From Acidobacteriota bacterium (GTDB taxonomy: Bacteria > Acidobacteriota > Terriglobia > Versatilivoradales > Versatilivoraceae), in assembly GCA_028875575.1 (NCBI GenBank), contig JAPPDF010000036.1, forward strand, positions 1 to 33,398: a stretch of 33,398 bases of DNA, written 5' to 3'. The stretch's first letter is position 1, and every line of letters starts with the position of its first letter. Positions 5,386 through 31,950 of the stretch are shown here, in pieces. The notes below the pieces were generated by a model. The model had not been told where the DNA came from and searched no databases. It was given only the letters and a program-made list of their open reading frames with translations. A program made the translations under genes and the position numbers.

Positions 5386-5646
5386 ATGACCTACATCATT
5401 ACCGAGCCCTGCATTGGAACCAAGGACACTGCCTGTGTGGATGTCTGTCCGGTCGATTGCATTCATCCCAAGTCCGACGAAGATGGATTCGAGGAGGCCG
5501 AGCAGCTCTATATCGATCCGGACGAATGCATCGACTGTGGGGCCTGTGTTCCCGCCTGTCCGGTGGAAGCCATTTTCGCCGAAGAGGACCTTCCGGATCA
5601 GTGGAATGAATACCTCGAAATCAACGCCAACTGGTACCAGAAGTGA
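5386..5646 (+). CDS. 7Fe ferredoxin ([3Fe-4S][4Fe-4S]), copy 1
   Basis: An 86-residue ferredoxin of the seven-iron type. Its cysteine pattern matches the Azotobacter FdI class: Cys9, Cys17 and Cys58 fit the [3Fe-4S] cluster, Cys48, Cys51, Cys54 and Cys21 the [4Fe-4S] cluster, and Cys25 the extra cysteine nearby. It is a small soluble, low-potential electron carrier. AGGAG lies 8 bases before the ATG. A second gene coding an 88% identical protein follows 93 bases downstream on the same strand. The C-terminal tail ([10 protein letters not shown]) is identical in both, suggesting a shared binding face. The redox partner is not evident from the window. Confidence 0.93.
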
Positions 5647-5739
5647 GCGGTATCGCTCAATGACGGAATGGGGGTGGGCTTACCCCTCCAACGATTTGAT
5701 TCTCATGCTCCCAATGCTGAAAGAAGGAGGAAATCGATC

Positions 5740-6000
5740 ATGGCTTACGTGATTGCCGAGCCCTGTATCGGAACCAAGGATACAGCCTGTGTGGATGTCT
5801 GTCCCGTGGATTGTATTCACCCCAAGTCCGACGAGGATGAGTTTGAAGGTGCCGAGCAGTTATACATCGATCCGGACGAGTGTATCGACTGCAACGCCTG
5901 CGTCCCTGCCTGTCCGGTGGAGGCTATTTTCGCCGAAGACGACCTTCCCGACGAGTGGTCCCACTACCTGGAGATCAACGCCAACTGGTACCAGAAGTAA
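5740..6000 (+). CDS. 7Fe ferredoxin ([3Fe-4S][4Fe-4S]), copy 2
   Basis: An 86-residue tandem paralogue of the preceding ferredoxin. Ten residues differ (positions 2, 4, 6, 34, 37, 52, 67, 72, 74, 75), and all eight cysteines are kept. Gly52 to Asn, between Cys51 and Cys54 of the [4Fe-4S] site, could shift redox potential. It has its own strong ribosome site (AAGGAGG, 9 bases before ATG), so it is independently translated, probably from the same mRNA as copy 1. I chose ATG 5740 over an upstream in-frame start because of that ribosome site and the match to copy 1. The stop lies only 6 bases from the stop of the convergent PLP enzyme gene. Confidence 0.93.
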   Translation: MAYVIAEPCIGTKDTACVDVCPVDCIHPKSDEDEFEGAEQLYIDPDECIDCNACVPACPVEAIFAEDDLPDEWSHYLEINANWYQK

Positions 6001-18060: not shown

Positions 18061-18121
18061 CTTGAGAGGGATCGGCCAAGAGGTGGGGAGGGAAGGATTT
18101 CCACCCGGGACACCTGTTTGT

Positions 18122-18329
18122 AACAAACGCCGGCGCCTGGTGGCAGGAAACCGGTTCAAAGTCGAGCATGGACGGAATTTTGATTCACATCGATGCACAG
18201 GATGCACAGGATTCTTCTTCCTTGAAACAAACGCCGGCGCCTGGTGGTTGGAAACCGGTTCGAAGTCAAGCCCGAGTAGAGGATTTATTGACATCGATGG
18301 ACAGGAGGCGCAGGAATTTTTCTGGAGAC
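18122..18329. repeat. Tandem duplication, two copies of about 104 bp
   Basis: AACAAACGCCGGCGCCTGGT begins at 18122 and again at 18226, giving a period of 104 bases. Both copies continue with GGAAACCGGTTC and then a form of the ACATCGATGCACAGGATGCACAGG repeat; the first copy keeps that repeat better. A further inverted fragment (GTGCATCGATGTTGAAT) lies at 18411-18427. No reading frame here looks coding, so this gap is a repeat cluster. Confidence 0.75.
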
Positions 18330-18560: not shown

Positions 18561-21500
18561 TTATTCGAGCAGGAGCTTCACGTCGGTTTCGAATTGTCGA
18601 TAGTCGGTGAACCTGGTGACATTGCGGGTATGGACCCGCGCACTCTGCAGGATGCCGATCGACATGTTGAACTGAGCTCGAACCGGAAGCCAGTGGTGGC
18701 TCTCCCCGATGCGGACCTGGTCGTAGGCGATGCTCACTTCCGAGGTCTTGACGGGGAAATCCTCGGGAAGGTCCACCGTCTTCTTGATCAGTTGAACCAC
18801 CTGGTAGGAATCGACGTCGATCCAGCACAGTCCCCGGTAACCCACCCGCAGGGGGTTGCCCTGGTAGGTCACTTGGAGGGCGGAAGTCTCCTGCGGAATC
18901 CGAAAGGCCACCCGCACGGTCTGACGGCCCGCGATCTGCTCGGCCCCCTCCAGGCGGAAGGAGGTCCTGCTCTGAGGAGCGAACACGTTCTGGATAGCGG
19001 CCGCGAATTGACCGATGGAATATGCGCCGTCCTGGCTGCCCGATGTCTTTTGCCCCTCTACGGGCTGATAGGTTTCTTCTCCATTCGCGAACAGGAGGTC
19101 CTCCTGGAGCTGGTCTTTTTCCTGCCAACCTTGGAACAGACGCTCGAATCGCTCTGTCCGGCGGCGACAGACGAAGTCGGGCAGGTCCGAGAATGTCGTT
19201 TCCAACCTGCGGCGGACGGCATCCAGAAAGTCCGGCCATTCGGCGTCGGTCGGCACCCCGCCGGGTTGGCCGGAGGCAAGAGTGGGAGCAGCGGAGCCGC
19301 TGACGGTAAACTCTTCGGAACCGTTATCCGCCATGAACTCGGGACGATGGTATGCGGAGGGCGTGTCGGCGGGCTGCATTTTCCTGGTCGCGGCCTGTTG
19401 GGCGTCGAACGGCAAATGGGTGCTCTCGTCGTAGCGGGCTTCTGCAAACCGCGTCTTGCCGATCTTGATGTTGCCGGCAAGGGGAATAAAGAGGTTGGCC
19501 TCCCTTTGACCGACCAGAGATGCGCGGGTCAGTCTTGCGCCTCGAAGATCGGCCCGCCTCAGATCGCTGCCGAACAGGACTGCTTCCGACAGGTCGGCTA
19601 CCTGCAGAATGGCCTGGTTCAAGTCGGAATCTTTCAGGATGGCGCGCTGCAAATTGGCGCCCAGCAAGTTGGCGCCTTTCAGGCTGGCCTGAGTCAGGCT
19701 GGCATCGGTCAGATCGGCCCCTTGCAGTTGTGCGCCGTCCAGCGTGGCCTTGACCAGTTCGGCACCCGAAAGATTGGCGCCTCGAAGATCGGCCCCTCGC
19801 AAGTCTGCCTCCCAGAGCCTGGCCTGGGTCAAGTCGGCCCTCAGCAGAACCGCATCCCGAAGATCCGCATTGCGCAGATCCATGCCGCTCAGGTTGGCTC
19901 CGAAGAGATTCGTTCCCTTCAAGGTGTACGACTGCAGTGGGTGCCTCCGCAGGTCGCCGCATTCTCCCGGATGATCGAGGTTGTATCCCAACTCTCCCTG
20001 GTCGTTGGCGCAGGCCAACAAATCGCTGCGGAATCGGTAGGGCACCGCATCAGCGCCGTTACCGGAGGACCGTGGGATCTCCAGGCTGGCCCGGATCTTT
20101 TTCAGGTCGAGGCCAACCGCCGGCTCCGGACCGGAGGCTGTTTCGACATTAGTCTTACCGGAATTGACCGGCGCCGGCACGTCGCCGGATGCGGCCACTT
20201 CCTTACCCCGCCTCACCACGAAATCGGTCTCGGTGATGGTGGCGCGGCCGCTGCCTGATTCCTCGGTGGTGATCTCGAATCGGTAGCTGCCGGGGCTCAG
20301 GGATTGGGTGGACAGCTTGAAGCCCACCGCCACTTGGCCGGGCGTGCGCTCCTCCAGGTGGTTGCGGTCCAATGCGATGGGCGGAAAGTCGACGGCCTCG
20401 CCAGTGTCCTTGACTGCCTGGACGCGAGCCGTGAGATTGCCGTCCTCCAGCTTGGAGGCGTTGTAGAGTTTGTAGAACACGGCCAGAGGTTGGGGAACAA
20501 CAATTTCGTTGCTGATCGCGGGCCTCACCCGGAACCCGCGGTGAAACAGCCAGCGGGCTTCCGGCACCTGCATTCCGGCTACCGAAGGAGAAAAGGGCTG
20601 CAGGTCCTGACTCAGGATCAGGCCGCTGGTCATGAGCGCATCCCGGGGAAGGTCTGGGATCCACAGCGACTGCTCGGCCGTGCCCAATTGGGCGTGGCGG
20701 TCGGCGGCCACCAGCTTGATGCGATACTTGCCCGGCTTCAGCTTGAGGAATCCTTCCACGAACGATTCCGCCTCTCCGCTTGCCTGCGGGAAAGTCTGGC
20801 TGAAAATCGAAGCCGGCTGCCCGTCGTCGGAGAAGGCAACCCCCATCAGGCGTAGATCTTTCCCCGGCAACCAGCTTTTCGGGGTGTCTCTCGCAGAACC
20901 TTGGGAGACCTTGGCCGTGAACAGGACCAGGGCCCGCTCGGCCTCCTGGTAGAAGAAGTTGGCCTTGAAATCCACATTCAGATCGCGGTGCTGCTCGGAT
21001 GACTGCAGTCCGCGGTGGGTGGCCTTTTCCAGCGTTCCCGCTATTTCCTGTTCCGACAGCAGCGGTACCTCAACGGTTCGACGGAGCGAGCCCAGTCCGG
21101 AGTTGAGGTTCTCCCGGGCCGCAACCTTGACTTGATACCGTCCCGGTGGAACCTTCAGCACAACCTTGGAGGTCAGGCCCGATTGCAGCAGAGCCTGGTA
21201 GCTGCTGTCGCCAAGCTTGAAGTTCCAGGCCTTCTCGTCTCCTCCGACATACTCGTCCTTGGCGTCAAAGGCAACTACGGCCAGGTTGATCCGATTGATC
21301 CGCTTGCCCTCTTCCACCAGGAAGGGGAGATTCTTGAAGTCCAGGCGGGTCACGATCTCCAACTGGTAGGTATCTCCATCCAGGCGGGAGCCGTGATAGG
21401 ACATCTGCAGCGGGATTTCCCTGAGATCGGTGGGCGCCCGCATGGCTTCCAGCATTTCCTTCTTCTGCTGCTCTTCCTGGGACAAGCGCTCCTTGGGGGC

Positions 21501-22874
21501 ATAGAAGCCCCTGCGGTGAGTGACCCGGGCTCCAGGCCGTGAGACTCTCACTCGAAGCCTGTAGAAGCGCCCGTCGGGATTCTTGGGCGGGGTGGCGTAG
21601 CTCAGGACATAGTAGGAAAACTGCTGGTCCACCACCTGTCTGAGGCCCGCCCCCAGGTCGTTGTTGTCCTTGAAGTAGATGCCTCCCGTAGCCTTGGCCA
21701 GATACGCGAGGGACATTCCTTTTTGCCTGCGGTCCTCCGTGACCAGCAAGGATTTTTCAAGCCGGAGATTGCTGTTGTTGGTGAGATTGTTGCTGACGTC
21801 GTATATGGAGCTGGTGTCCAGCCCGGTGGACCGGATGGTATTGAAGATGATGCCGGTCTTCAGGGCCACGTCGACCAGGCGCTCCAGCTCATAGCGAAGC
21901 GCCCGGTGCAGGAAGCCTGCCGAGAGCAGCACCATGGATTTCTGTGCCTCCACCGGTCCGAGAGAGCGGATGTGCCCCCGCAGAACATCCAGCAAGCGCC
22001 GGGTGCGGCTCTTCTTGAGGGACAGGTGCTGGGCCGCCAGGGTGCGTACATAAGTTTCAATGGCCTGCTGGGTTGCATCCACCCCGGTCGTTCCGACTCC
22101 GACTCGCTGTCTCTGGCTCAGCGGGTTGGCCGAGGCGCCGCCTATCCCGCAGTCTTCGGCTTCGGCCATGGCCACGTCGAAGGCCCGGCTGCCCGGTGCT
22201 GGCGAAACCATATGGATTTCCTCGGCTTGAGCATCGGTCATGGTGACGCATACCGGTCGGTTCATCGACGACGTGAAATCCAGCTTTTTGTGGATTCTGT
22301 CGATCTCGGCCAGCAGCAGCTCGCTGTCCTGAGTGAAGGGGACGAAATAGCCGCGGGAGGCCGTCATGATGGAAATGTAGTTTCCCGCTTTCAATCCCCT
22401 TTCCACGAATCCGCGAATGGCTTGGACGGTGCGGCTGAGAGTGCCCATGGGGGGATAGGTGAGGTCGTCGATGACCAGGCTCAGCAGACGGGGCTTTTCG
22501 GGGGGCGCTTCCGGCGCCGGTTCCTCCGCGTCGACCGTGCTGCCCCAGGTCAGGGAGCTCTGCGAACCCTGGTAGATTTCCTGTGAAAATGACTGAATGG
22601 TCTGCTTCTTGCGGTTTTCCAAGACCTCGAAATCGTCGACGGTCAGGTCGGTAATGGGGTTCCCGTCACGATCCGTGACAATGGCATTGACCACCACCAC
22701 TTCTACCGGCACCTTGAGAGTGAATCCGGAAGAGGATTGGCCTTGGACACTTCCAGAACCCGCGGGCTTGTCCTCCGCAATGGCCGCGATCGGGGCCAAG
22801 AGGGCCGCCAAACAGCCGGCAACCAGGATTCCCGACAAAATTGCGCCGGGGAAAAGGGGCCTTGCGAGAGACAT
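18561..22874 (-). CDS. Exported VWA-like / pentapeptide-repeat / LPDFVC-domain fusion protein
   Basis: A 1,437-residue exported protein. After a signal peptide (about 1-33, ending AAIAED), residues 50-460 resemble the acidobacterial VWFA-related family: VPVEVVVVNAIVTD and VDDFEVLENRKKQTI, then a Rossmann-like domain with VIDDLTYPP in place of the usual metal-site DxSxS. Residues about 480-950 are beta-rich. Residues about 980-1,120 are some 28 pentapeptide repeats (A-D/N-L-x-x), forming a right-handed helix. The rest (from about 1,217) holds a domain with LPDFVCRRRTERF and WIDVDSYQVVQL, like acidobacterial cell-envelope proteins. ATG 22874 has AGGTG 7 bases upstream; ATG 22925 overlaps the -10 box and is unlikely. 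LVAGC in the signal resembles a lipobox but sits mid-helix. Role unknown. Confidence 0.85.
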   Translation of the reverse strand: MSLARPLFPGAILSGILVAGCLAALLAPIAAIAEDKPAGSGSVQGQSSSGFTLKVPVEVVVVNAIVTDRDGNPITDLTVDDFEVLENRKKQTIQSFSQEIYQGSQSSLTWGSTVDAEEPAPEAPPEKPRLLSLVIDDLTYPPMGTLSRTVQAIRGFVERGLKAGNYISIMTASRGYFVPFTQDSELLLAEIDRIHKKLDFTSSMNRPVCVTMTDAQAEEIHMVSPAPGSRAFDVAMAEAEDCGIGGASANPLSQRQRVGVGTTGVDATQQAIETYVRTLAAQHLSLKKSRTRRLLDVLRGHIRSLGPVEAQKSMVLLSAGFLHRALRYELERLVDVALKTGIIFNTIRSTGLDTSSIYDVSNNLTNNSNLRLEKSLLVTEDRRQKGMSLAYLAKATGGIYFKDNNDLGAGLRQVVDQQFSYYVLSYATPPKNPDGRFYRLRVRVSRPGARVTHRRGFYAPKERLSQEEQQKKEMLEAMRAPTDLREIPLQMSYHGSRLDGDTYQLEIVTRLDFKNLPFLVEEGKRINRINLAVVAFDAKDEYVGGDEKAWNFKLGDSSYQALLQSGLTSKVVLKVPPGRYQVKVAARENLNSGLGSLRRTVEVPLLSEQEIAGTLEKATHRGLQSSEQHRDLNVDFKANFFYQEAERALVLFTAKVSQGSARDTPKSWLPGKDLRLMGVAFSDDGQPASIFSQTFPQASGEAESFVEGFLKLKPGKYRIKLVAADRHAQLGTAEQSLWIPDLPRDALMTSGLILSQDLQPFSPSVAGMQVPEARWLFHRGFRVRPAISNEIVVPQPLAVFYKLYNASKLEDGNLTARVQAVKDTGEAVDFPPIALDRNHLEERTPGQVAVGFKLSTQSLSPGSYRFEITTEESGSGRATITETDFVVRRGKEVAASGDVPAPVNSGKTNVETASGPEPAVGLDLKKIRASLEIPRSSGNGADAVPYRFRSDLLACANDQGELGYNLDHPGECGDLRRHPLQSYTLKGTNLFGANLSGMDLRNADLRDAVLLRADLTQARLWEADLRGADLRGANLSGAELVKATLDGAQLQGADLTDASLTQASLKGANLLGANLQRAILKDSDLNQAILQVADLSEAVLFGSDLRRADLRGARLTRASLVGQREANLFIPLAGNIKIGKTRFAEARYDESTHLPFDAQQAATRKMQPADTPSAYHRPEFMADNGSEEFTVSGSAAPTLASGQPGGVPTDAEWPDFLDAVRRRLETTFSDLPDFVCRRRTERFERLFQGWQEKDQLQEDLLFANGEETYQPVEGQKTSGSQDGAYSIGQFAAAIQNVFAPQSRTSFRLEGAEQIAGRQTVRVAFRIPQETSALQVTYQGNPLRVGYRGLCWIDVDSYQVVQLIKKTVDLPEDFPVKTSEVSIAYDQVRIGESHHWLPVRAQFNMSIGILQSARVHTRNVTRFTDYRQFETDVKLLLE

Positions 22875-22923
22875 GGCTTGCACCTGTTTTTCGAGGGTTT
22901 TTGCGGACCGAAAACGGTAGTTC

Positions 22924-22952
22924 ATTATGGAACGATCGTCCCTCGCGGGCAA
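22924..22952 (-). promoter_or_regulatory. Candidate promoter for the VWA/pentapeptide gene
   Basis: On the minus strand TTGCCC (22947-22952) and CATAAT (22924-22929) are 17 bases apart. The -10 box overlaps the ATG at 22925, so a transcript from here starts inside the longer reading frame, which favours translation from ATG 22874. Confidence 0.5.
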
Positions 22953-22986
22953 CCCCATTTTGCGCGGCCCCGAGCCTGGCCTGAGC

Positions 22987-29670: not shown

Positions 29671-30510
29671 TCATGCCGGGTCTTCCAGCTCAACCGCCTG
29701 AAACAGTCCTTCGGTCACCCAGCCGCGGAACCAGGAAAAGAGCTGTACCTCTCCGACCGGCTGGCCCCCACGTCTCAAGACCCCGCTCAGTGCCTCTCCG
29801 AGCGGCACTCCGTTGACAAGAGCTTTCAGAAGCCGGTAGGCGGGACGGGACAGATCCAGCCAGCGTAGGGCGAATTGGCTTCGATAGACCACCGCCCAGT
29901 GGTTTTTGCGCCGGGTGGCGGGCCGTGGTTTGCCCTGGCGCACCGCCTCCAGATAGGCCCCCACGGGGTAGCGAAGCTCCTGCACCGAGAGGGCAGCGAC
30001 AGGTTTGAGACGGGCGGTCTCCCAGCATTCGGGGGGTACCTCGGCAATGGCCTCGGGGGTGAGAACCGGCGATTCCTCGGCGTCGAACAGCCGGCTCATC
30101 AGCAGTTCAAAGCGAGCCAGCTCGTAGAGGAAGTCCTTCCGCACCATCCCGGGACTGCTCCGGATGAATTCGGGGAGATGATCTCCCAGACGATTCAAGG
30201 TATAGCTTTGGGAGGGATAGCGGTCGACATAGCCCCTGACCAGGTCGGAGAAGCGCTTCGGACCCAGAAAATGCGCCAGCCCGGGAAAATCGGCCTCCAG
30301 GGCTTCCTGCAAGCGGGCCAGGTACATGCCGCGGTAGATGCCGATTCGGTCGAAGGAATCGAGTGTGCGGGATGGCCGTATCAGACCCGTAAACCGGCTC
30401 GGCGGCACCAATTTTCGGGCTTCGGCGGAAGCCACCGCCTGCCGGTCGGAGCCCGGATGCAGGATGACCGCCTGCATCCATTTCTGGGTATTGCCCAGAT
30501 CAGGTGCCAT
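29671..30510 (-). CDS. bufC: DUF2063 family MNIO partner protein (BufC-like)
   Basis: A 279-residue protein of the DUF2063 ('putative DNA-binding domain') family. In characterised RiPP systems such proteins (MbnC, BufC/HvfC) bind the precursor peptide and pair with the DUF692 enzyme. Seen here: an N-terminal helical region with SFDRIGIYRGMYLARLQEAL and ADFPGLAHFLG, the usual start of the family (about residues 50-85), then YPSQSYTLNRLGDHLPEFI, and a C-terminal part (about 170-279) with the winged-helix-like RWLDLSRPAYRLLKALVNG. The start overlaps the DUF692 gene by 11 bases, so the two are translationally coupled. The role is inferred from family and context. Confidence 0.85.
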   Translation of the reverse strand: MAPDLGNTQKWMQAVILHPGSDRQAVASAEARKLVPPSRFTGLIRPSRTLDSFDRIGIYRGMYLARLQEALEADFPGLAHFLGPKRFSDLVRGYVDRYPSQSYTLNRLGDHLPEFIRSSPGMVRKDFLYELARFELLMSRLFDAEESPVLTPEAIAEVPPECWETARLKPVAALSVQELRYPVGAYLEAVRQGKPRPATRRKNHWAVVYRSQFALRWLDLSRPAYRLLKALVNGVPLGEALSGVLRRGGQPVGEVQLFSWFRGWVTEGLFQAVELEDPA

Positions 30511-31360
30511 AGGCTCTCTGGTGGTCCGGCTCGGGAAGGCCGCGGTGCCGGCGGGCTTTCAGGGCTTCGGCGTGCACCACCTCGAAGCTGGGAATGTTCT
30601 CGTCCCACTCCAACAGGGTGGCTACGCCGCCGGTTCTTTGGCAGGAACGTCGATAGAGGGACCAGACCTCGTCGATGACGTGATCGCTATGGGTGTCCAG
30701 AATATGCGTTCCCTTGTGGGTGTGCCCGGCCAGGTGGTATTGAACGACGCGGTCGGCCGGGACTCGGTCGATGAAGGCTTCCGGGTCCAGGCCGTGGTTG
30801 AAGCAGCTGACGTAGACGTTGTTCACGTCCAGAAGAATCCCGCAGTCGGCCTCCTGGGCCAGAGTGGAGAGAAAATCCACTTCGCTCCAGGTGGAGGTCC
30901 CGAATTCCAGGTAGGTGGATGGGTTCTCCAGGACCAGGGGGCGCTCCAGGATCTCGGAAACCGCTTTCACCCGTTCGATGGTGTAGCGCAGGGATTCGTC
31001 GGTGTAGGGCATCGGCAGCAGGTCATGGACGTTGATTCCACTCACGCCGGTCCAGCAGAGGTGATCCGAGACCCAGTGGGCCCGGGTACGGTCGGCCAGA
31101 GCCTTCAGTTTTTTCAGATAGCCCAGGTTCAAGGGATCGGTGCTCCCCACCGACATGGACACTCCGTGGAGCACGACCGGGTAGCGTTCCGCCACCTGGT
31201 CCAGCACGTACAGCGGGCGGCCCCCCGTATCCATGTAGTTTTCCGAGAGGATCTCGAACCAGTCGATGGGCGGGTGGTTGGCCAGAATGTAGCTGTAATG
31301 GACGGTACGGAGACCGATCCCGAACCCCAGGTCGGGTAAATTCCACCGATTCCTGCCCAT
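30500..31360 (-). CDS. bufB: DUF692 multinuclear non-heme iron oxidase (MNIO), BufB-like
   Basis: A 286-residue TIM-barrel enzyme of the DUF692/MNIO family, which uses two or three iron atoms and oxygen to modify cysteines of ribosomal peptides. Metal-ligand motifs are visible in order: FEILSENYMD, VLHGVSMSVGS, VSDHLCWTG, VLENPSTYLEF, ILLDVNNVYVS, then YHLAGHTHKGTHILDTHSDH and LLEWDENIP. ATG 31360 has GGGAGG 7 bases upstream and gives the usual length; a longer frame to 31435 is unsupported. The gene follows the cysteine-rich precursor by 120 bases and overlaps bufC. Known relatives (MbnB, BufB) make copper-binding oxazolone/thioamide or thiooxazole groups; the exact product here is inference. 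Confidence 0.9.
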   Translation of the reverse strand: MGRNRWNLPDLGFGIGLRTVHYSYILANHPPIDWFEILSENYMDTGGRPLYVLDQVAERYPVVLHGVSMSVGSTDPLNLGYLKKLKALADRTRAHWVSDHLCWTGVSGINVHDLLPMPYTDESLRYTIERVKAVSEILERPLVLENPSTYLEFGTSTWSEVDFLSTLAQEADCGILLDVNNVYVSCFNHGLDPEAFIDRVPADRVVQYHLAGHTHKGTHILDTHSDHVIDEVWSLYRRSCQRTGGVATLLEWDENIPSFEVVHAEALKARRHRGLPEPDHQRAYGT

Positions 31361-31480
31361 AAGGGACCTCCCGGTCCAAACGGACGAACCCAGCCGGTCC
31401 CGCTTCCCGCTCGCGAAGTCGCGTATTGCACCCAACGGTCGGAAGCGCCGGGGGGCCGGTCAGTCCTGGTAACTGTCAGG

Positions 31481-31855
31481 CTATTTCTTCTTTTCGACTC
31501 CGTGGAGGGGAACGGAGCAGCCGCCCTTGCCCTTGCAGGAGTTCTTGCCGGCGCAGCCGTTGTCGCCGCTGCCGCAGCCGCCCTGGCCCTTGCACTCGTT
31601 CTGGCCCTTGCAGGAGTGCCTGGCCGCCGTGGCGCAGCCGCCCTTGCCCTTGCAGGAATTCTTGCCGGCGCAGCCGTTGTCGCCGCTGGCGCAGCCTCCT
31701 TGGCCCTTGCACTGGTTGCGGCCCTTGCAGACGTGCTTGGCCTTCTTGTCTTCATCGGCCAACAACAGGGAATCCGTTTGGCTGACCGCCTTGGAGCCCG
31801 CCACCATGCCGGCCACGGCGGCTCCCATCACCTGAGTGAATTTCCTTCGATCCAT
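31481..31855 (-). CDS. bufA2: Cysteine-rich bufferin-type RiPP precursor with duplicated core
   Basis: A 124-residue precursor peptide. MDRRKFTQVMGAAVAGM is a twin-arginine-like leader. A charged spacer (ADEDKKAKHV) leads to two 32-residue units, C43-C74 and C82-C113, each with six cysteines spaced C-x5-C-x5-C-x6-C-x5-C-x5-C. The units match in 29 of 32 positions; a seven-residue linker separates them and a short tail (SVPLHGVEKKK) follows. KGxNxCKGxGGC words resemble the BufA2 family of periplasmic bufferin metallophores, which sequester copper after MNIO modification. ATG 31855 has AAGGAG about 10 bases upstream and starts at the RR motif. The symbol is by resemblance. A metallothionein-like protein would look similar, but the adjacent MNIO gene favours a modified peptide. 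Confidence 0.85.
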   Translation of the reverse strand: MDRRKFTQVMGAAVAGMVAGSKAVSQTDSLLLADEDKKAKHVCKGRNQCKGQGGCASGDNGCAGKNSCKGKGGCATAARHSCKGQNECKGQGGCGSGDNGCAGKNSCKGKGGCSVPLHGVEKKK

Positions 31856-31950
31856 AGAAGATGTCTCCTTGGGGATAGCTTCGAACGTCACCTTTCGAGT
31901 CATCCGGCAACCAATGCCGACCCGTCACCTGGCGCTTTCGAGAGAGCCTG

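Follow-up and report, generated by a model that had tools for sequence, protein, structure and literature searches.

A two-core BufA2 precursor in a sponge-associated acidobacterium, its genus and the lineage of its maturase

The stretch of DNA analysed here (33,398 nucleotides, referred to below as the window) comes from a sponge-associated acidobacterium and probably encodes a two-core BufA2 precursor (Buf2, of the '12-Cys' kind) in a bufA-bufB-bufC operon, the two cores acting as two copper modules on one exported chain. We give this reading a probability of about 0.78. Bufferins, modified peptides that buffer copper, have been defined as a class only recently, and a 12-Cys Buf2 derived from duplicated 6-Cys domains has already been published (PMC12452194), so the doubled precursor is of a known type. 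What is new here is that the doubling is not an artefact, that it is older than the genus and has contracted to a single unit within it, and that it is linked to one clade of the maturase BufB. Also new are the half-module repeat, the Lys/Arg-His within the unit, the dispensability of Cys3 and Cys4, and the RRxF leader in most of the doubles of the phylum. The features of the locus are as follows.

31865..31870, minus strand: AAGGAG, likely ribosome-binding site, 9 nt 5' of the bufA2 ATG
31481..31855, minus strand: bufA2 precursor gene (ORF and translation, 124 aa, ATG start; NF050166 match)
31730..31855, minus strand: leader, residues 1-42, with a Tat-like N-terminus MDRRKFTQ and then a weakly hydrophobic stretch
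31634..31729, minus strand: core unit 1, C43-C74, made of half-module a CKGRNQCKGQGGC, ASGDNG and half-module b CAGKNSCKGKGGC
31613..31633, minus strand: separator ATAARHS, residues 75-81, the final RHS corresponding to the KHV that precedes unit 1
31517..31612, minus strand: core unit 2, C82-C113, made of half-module a CKGQNECKGQGGC, GSGDNG and half-module b CAGKNSCKGKGGC
31484..31516, minus strand: C-terminal tail SVPLHGVEKKK, with the (A/S)VP after the last unit conserved among double precursors
30500..31435, minus strand: bufB, MNIO-family maturase (NF050167 356.4 bits, cut-off 310; PF05114 1e-107)
29671..30510, minus strand: bufC, DUF2063 partner, PME-type 1 (PF09836 5.8e-19, above cut-off)

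The precursor had been taken for a BufA2 in a preliminary description made from the sequence, and profile NF050166 (Cu_RiPP_BufA2) agrees, scoring 61.2 bits where the cut-off is 60, a narrow margin for a match made up of three stretches. Its 12 cysteines lie in two equal sets of six, 6 or 12 being the number expected of a BufA2, and the adjoining genes for an MNIO (BufB) and a DUF2063 protein (BufC) are the neighbours expected of the family. The gene order is bufA2, bufB, bufC, and the ORFs of the last two overlap by 11 nt. The profile match of bufB begins at residue 38 of a TTG-start ORF, and translation probably starts further downstream, the Met at residue 26 being a likelier candidate than the listed TTG. 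The HvfC profile (NF050145) gives bufC 49.6 bits, below its cut-off of 142. There is no second BufA2 match in the genome and no DoxX gene was recognised at the bufA locus; the precursor has no DUF2282 Pfam match at E values up to 1, and EGKCG does not occur in its translation. A possible sign of Cys-Lys specificity, an acidic residue following the EWD motif in BufB, was considered, but D, E, A, Q and G all occur at this position and its equivalence with the published BufB2-Asp251 was not established, and the idea was dropped.

Residues C43 to C113 of the 124-aa ORF occupy exactly 31517..31729 (minus strand, ORF start at 31855), and the near-exact duplication previously reported there stands. 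Units C43-C74 and C82-C113 are identical at 29/32 residues and 89/96 nucleotides (six codons differ, three of them nonsynonymously), and the equal spacing of the six cysteines was also read correctly (43, 49, 55, 62, 68, 74 and 82, 88, 94, 101, 107, 113, in steps of 6, 6, 7, 6, 6). Tandem Repeats Finder returned a 117-bp period with 90% matches and a 57-bp sub-period for the precursor, and the unit profile matches it twice, each time spanning positions 1-32. Among 100,000 shuffles of unit 2 the best match was 18/32, or 21/32 with the cysteines held in place, so the similarity of the units is not due to chance. The seven-residue linker that had been described between them is right as to length (ATAARHS), but its last three residues (RHS) copy the KHV before unit 1 and its independent part amounts to about four residues. 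This makes the true period 39 residues, some 36 of which belong to the unit, and the repeated unit takes in the preceding Lys/Arg-His. The His that precedes Cys1 is conserved in both units among 44 aligned homologues (H80 is invariant, H41 is kept in at least 90%), and so are V115 and P116 of the C-terminal tail (at least 90%).

A deeper repeat inside each unit, suspected before, is real: across 173 distinct units, halves a and b agree at 6.64 of the 10 non-Cys positions, compared with 2.4 after shuffling. The architecture of the unit is that of two 13-residue half-modules, CxGxNxCKGxGGC, plus six joining residues. In one homologue (L101) the two half-modules are identical, and another (L049, 4001..4414) carries extra partial half-modules (KGANECKGKGGC, AAKNECKGKGGC) within its double core, an indication that half-modules expand too.

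All six cysteines are kept in 201 of the 248 distinct units collected. Cys3 and Cys4 are both absent in 21, Cys4 alone in 16 and Cys3 alone in none, counts that are inflated by relatedness and in which one loop deletion can take Cys3 and Cys4 together. Cys6 is displaced in 10 units and Cys1 is absent in none, while the constancy of Cys2 and Cys5 is built into the unit search, which demanded both. Across these units Cys3 and Cys4 are dispensable and Cys1 is always kept. A Cys3-Cys4 pairing is likely; a strict pairing, suggested by the 21 joint losses, was weakened by the 16 units with Cys3 only and was not retained. Two loci (L260 and L102) encode two-unit precursors with shortened units devoid of Cys3 and Cys4, and in L260 both units have four cysteines. 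Of the four cysteines in Buf1, the central two carry the modification and a disulphide joins the outer two (PMC12452194, Fig. 3 legend). The four cysteines of Buf1 of Caulobacter vibrioides match the C1, C2, C5 and C6 kept by the variant units here, and on this likeness C49, C68, C88 and C107 (Cys2 and Cys5, the half-module centres) are the likeliest residues to be modified. The four-Cys set retained in shortened units predicts which cysteines matter.

The working that we infer for the precursor (its chemistry, modified cysteines, export route, metal and stoichiometry) would be the following. BufC and BufB would recognise the leader and oxidise chosen cysteines of each unit to copper-binding heterocycles (5-thiooxazoles in the characterised relatives). 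The modified chain would then be exported, probably via Tat since the leader has RRxF, and would remain one molecule in the periplasm. Each unit of about 36 residues, [K/R]HxC...GGC, would be one copper-binding module in which Cys2 and Cys5 are modified, Cys1 and Cys6 make up the outer pair, and the pair of Cys3 and Cys4 is accessory. With one module per unit, the double chain should bind about twice the copper of a single-core bufferin, and two metal sites per chain, one of the outcomes envisaged at the outset, is the likeliest reading of the sequence. MNIO-DUF2063 pairs are known to convert Cys to 5-thiooxazole in every cassette of the multi-cassette mmr/fon precursors (PMC12538549, PMC13097082), and Buf2 of C. 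vibrioides shows a mass loss per modified Cys and an absorbance at 305 nm as in Buf1 (PMC12452194).

The two units could also make up one shared site or fold, for example a copper cluster across both, which we consider improbable. The doubles and their BufB do form one lineage, and what follows unit 1 (AT..KH) is consistently different from what follows unit 2 ((A/S)VP), so the units are not interchangeable ends. Against a shared site stand the one-unit forms, which persist in two sister species whose BufB and BufC are the same, and the published model of 12-Cys Buf2, which has two 6-Cys domains (PMC12452194). AlphaFold2 gave a mean pLDDT of 45.8 for the precursor on the 44-row alignment, too low for a usable fold, be it a shared one or one of two separate domains.

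A way to follow the doubling in time is provided by the genus (nearest named record, Candidatus Versatilivorator vitaminiformans), compared here through seven genomes, one per species. The arrangement of bufA-bufB-bufC beside a divergent mtnA is kept in all seven, as is an AGGAG-type site upstream of the bufA start. The double form is found in five of them, including a single-contig chromosome of 5.1 Mb (G001, OX638355.1). An assembly artefact, raised in the preliminary description as something that could undo the duplication, is refuted by this genome and by four further assemblies of the genus. The other two species (G002 and G003) have a precursor of 85 residues, with leader and tail unchanged and exactly 39 residues fewer, in which the start of unit 1 is joined to the tail of unit 2. 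The absence of the duplication in close relatives, the other objection foreseen, is thus real for two species but is a derived condition inside the double clade. G002 and G003 group as sisters (bootstrap 85, mtnA 99.1% identical) within the doubles and have double outgroups, which identifies the one-unit form as a contraction. Collapse of a double gene during assembly, which would challenge the contraction only, is a rather unlikely source of these single forms. Both genomes are fragmented bins (770 and 370 contigs) and the same join would be expected from collapse, but the longest exact repeat between units measures only 30-62 nt in the five doubles, short for long k-mer assemblers, and the single form was recovered in two separate assemblies, those of the two sister species.

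Between species, unit 2 matches unit 2 at 91-95 of 96 nucleotides, and within a gene unit 1 matches unit 2 at 87-91 of 96. The duplication therefore predates the genus and, with unit 2 nearer to the unit 2 of a sister species than to its own unit 1, the near-identity of the units does not mean that they are recent. Values of dN across the genus (0.007-0.039) are far below those of dS (0.148-0.316), so bufA2 is under purifying selection. Doubling is not essential, since two sister species manage with one unit. The genus is in this respect a natural experiment: five species have two units and the other two a single one in what is otherwise the same operon, so that dose, stoichiometry and maturation can be compared directly.

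Beyond the genus, a survey of homologues for core number (a check proposed beforehand) recovered single, double and triple cores. The 77 distinct gapless double cores belong mostly to Acidobacteriota and Planctomycetota, with a few from Pseudomonadota and other phyla, and three loci (L083, L095 and L098) encode three full six-Cys units each (at least 18 Cys), exceeding both the 6-Cys and the 12-Cys Buf2 classes of PMC12452194. Of the 111 matching genomes in the class, 13 encode a double precursor, a figure near the published share of 10% (PMC12452194). Separators in doubles are mostly of 6-8 residues with a recurring AT..KH pattern. Mean identity between the units of one precursor is 26.5/32, and across species it is 24.2 for unit 1 against unit 2, 24.1 for unit 1 against unit 1 and 24.9 for unit 2 against unit 2, values that point to units of old date that have been partly homogenised or share a constraint.

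Core number follows the maturase closely. On a BufB tree of 110 tips the distribution of single versus double or triple precursors takes 3 changes, where 34.5 are expected with shuffled labels, and all doubles and triples fall in one group of 68 tips in which G002 and G003 are the only singles; this is a quick tree with several long branches, and its deep joins are uncertain. As the doubles had first been fetched with a double query, which tilts the 80 best contig hits toward doubles (their frequencies were not taken as a census), the phylum was resampled by BufB alone. In this sample all 13 recognised precursors beside a BufB of at least 62% identity were double, the 8 beside a BufB of 54-57% identity were all single, and several loci had no recognised precursor. 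Taken together, these sequences suggest that doubling is a stable, old trait of one BufB lineage across several phyla.

Some of the loci retrieved are peculiar. Divergent Cys-rich proteins are encoded at three BufB loci (L267, L268 and L276), that of L276 (G389) being a protein of 263 residues adjoining BufB, with a double-core-like CATAQKHNC ... CAVP and a long extra C-terminus. A two-unit BufA2 of the acidobacterial/planctomycete type (L064, 4001..4240) comes from a record titled as a Klebsiella pneumoniae MAG, a label that is probably wrong.

Judging from its motif, the leader MDRRKFTQ would be of Tat type, and the host genome encodes TatC. RRxF near the start Met was found in 31 of 41 acidobacterial doubles against 4 of 76 singles (two of these four being the contracted forms), an association strongly shaped by common descent. 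It is present as well in five of the six Pseudomonadota doubles; most Planctomycetota doubles are without RRxF and many of them have lipoprotein-like leaders. The survey of bufferins presents their signals as Sec and raises the question of how premature export is prevented (PMC12452194), and its discussion leaves open how the precursors stay inside until modified. The words 'Tat' and 'twin-arginine' are not used in its main text, and a literature search gave no report that combines twin-arginine with MNIO or DUF692. Should the Tat-like leaders prove real, the question of timing would be simply answered in this clade. A joint reading, which we offer tentatively and regard as somewhat doubtful, is that core number is a fixed trait of the maturase lineage, a BufB clade (spanning Acidobacteriota, Planctomycetota, Pseudomonadota and others) having co-evolved with two-core precursors, those of Acidobacteriota and Pseudomonadota leaving via Tat instead of Sec. 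If true, such export would solve how modification ends before export.

The preliminary description had also envisaged that the units are cut apart after modification to give two free metallophore peptides per precursor. Multi-core precursors are cut into several products in other RiPP classes, and a short variable stretch does lie between the units. This outcome now looks very unlikely: around the operon, from hemH to mtnA, no gene was recognised as one for a protease, and part of the separator already belongs to the unit that follows, its final [KR]Hx being that of unit 2. Separators moreover show their recurring AT..KH and narrow range of lengths rather than a cleavage motif, and the mmr clusters are likewise devoid of a protease, their peptide being thought by the authors to stay whole (PMC12538549). 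About as improbable is that the duplication arose recently or neutrally by tandem expansion, or as an assembly artefact, and has no lasting function: tandem repeats easily expand and contract and two sister species have a single unit, but the five double species (one a single-contig chromosome), the closer match of unit 2 across species than of the units within a gene, the low dN, the many double cores in several phyla and their agreement with the BufB tree all speak against it.

With the published 12-Cys Buf2 (PMC12452194) the two-core precursor shares 12 Cys in two six-Cys domains of the sequence, adjoining MNIO and DUF2063 genes, an NF050166 score above the cut-off and probably a signal-type leader. 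It differs in its Tat-like leader, where Sec signals are described for the former, in having no recognised DoxX and in the contraction to one core in two sister species. Buf1 (DUF2282) of C. vibrioides has the same presumed function and maturation by MNIO and DUF2063 proteins, but it has a DUF2282 domain and four cysteines, and CxGxNxCKGxGGC half-modules have not been described for it. The precursors of oxazolin, fontiphorin, gonophorin and bulbicupramide also have repeated Cys cassettes, which the MNIO-DUF2063 pair modifies singly with 4 H lost per Cys; theirs are EGKCG Lys-Cys repeats, whereas the precursor here has Cys-Lys in a repeated module of 32-36 residues.

Other features of the window include two tandem, near-identical small ferredoxin-like proteins (5386..5646 and 5668..6000), which makes them the second case in this stretch of a Cys-rich protein duplicated in tandem. 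There is also a direct repeat of 104 bp in two copies with 80% matches (18118..18323), and an ORF of 1465 aa (18561..22958) joins a VWFA-like N-terminal part to a pentapeptide-like stretch (ADLRGANLSGAELVKA...), a combination that is unusual by eye.
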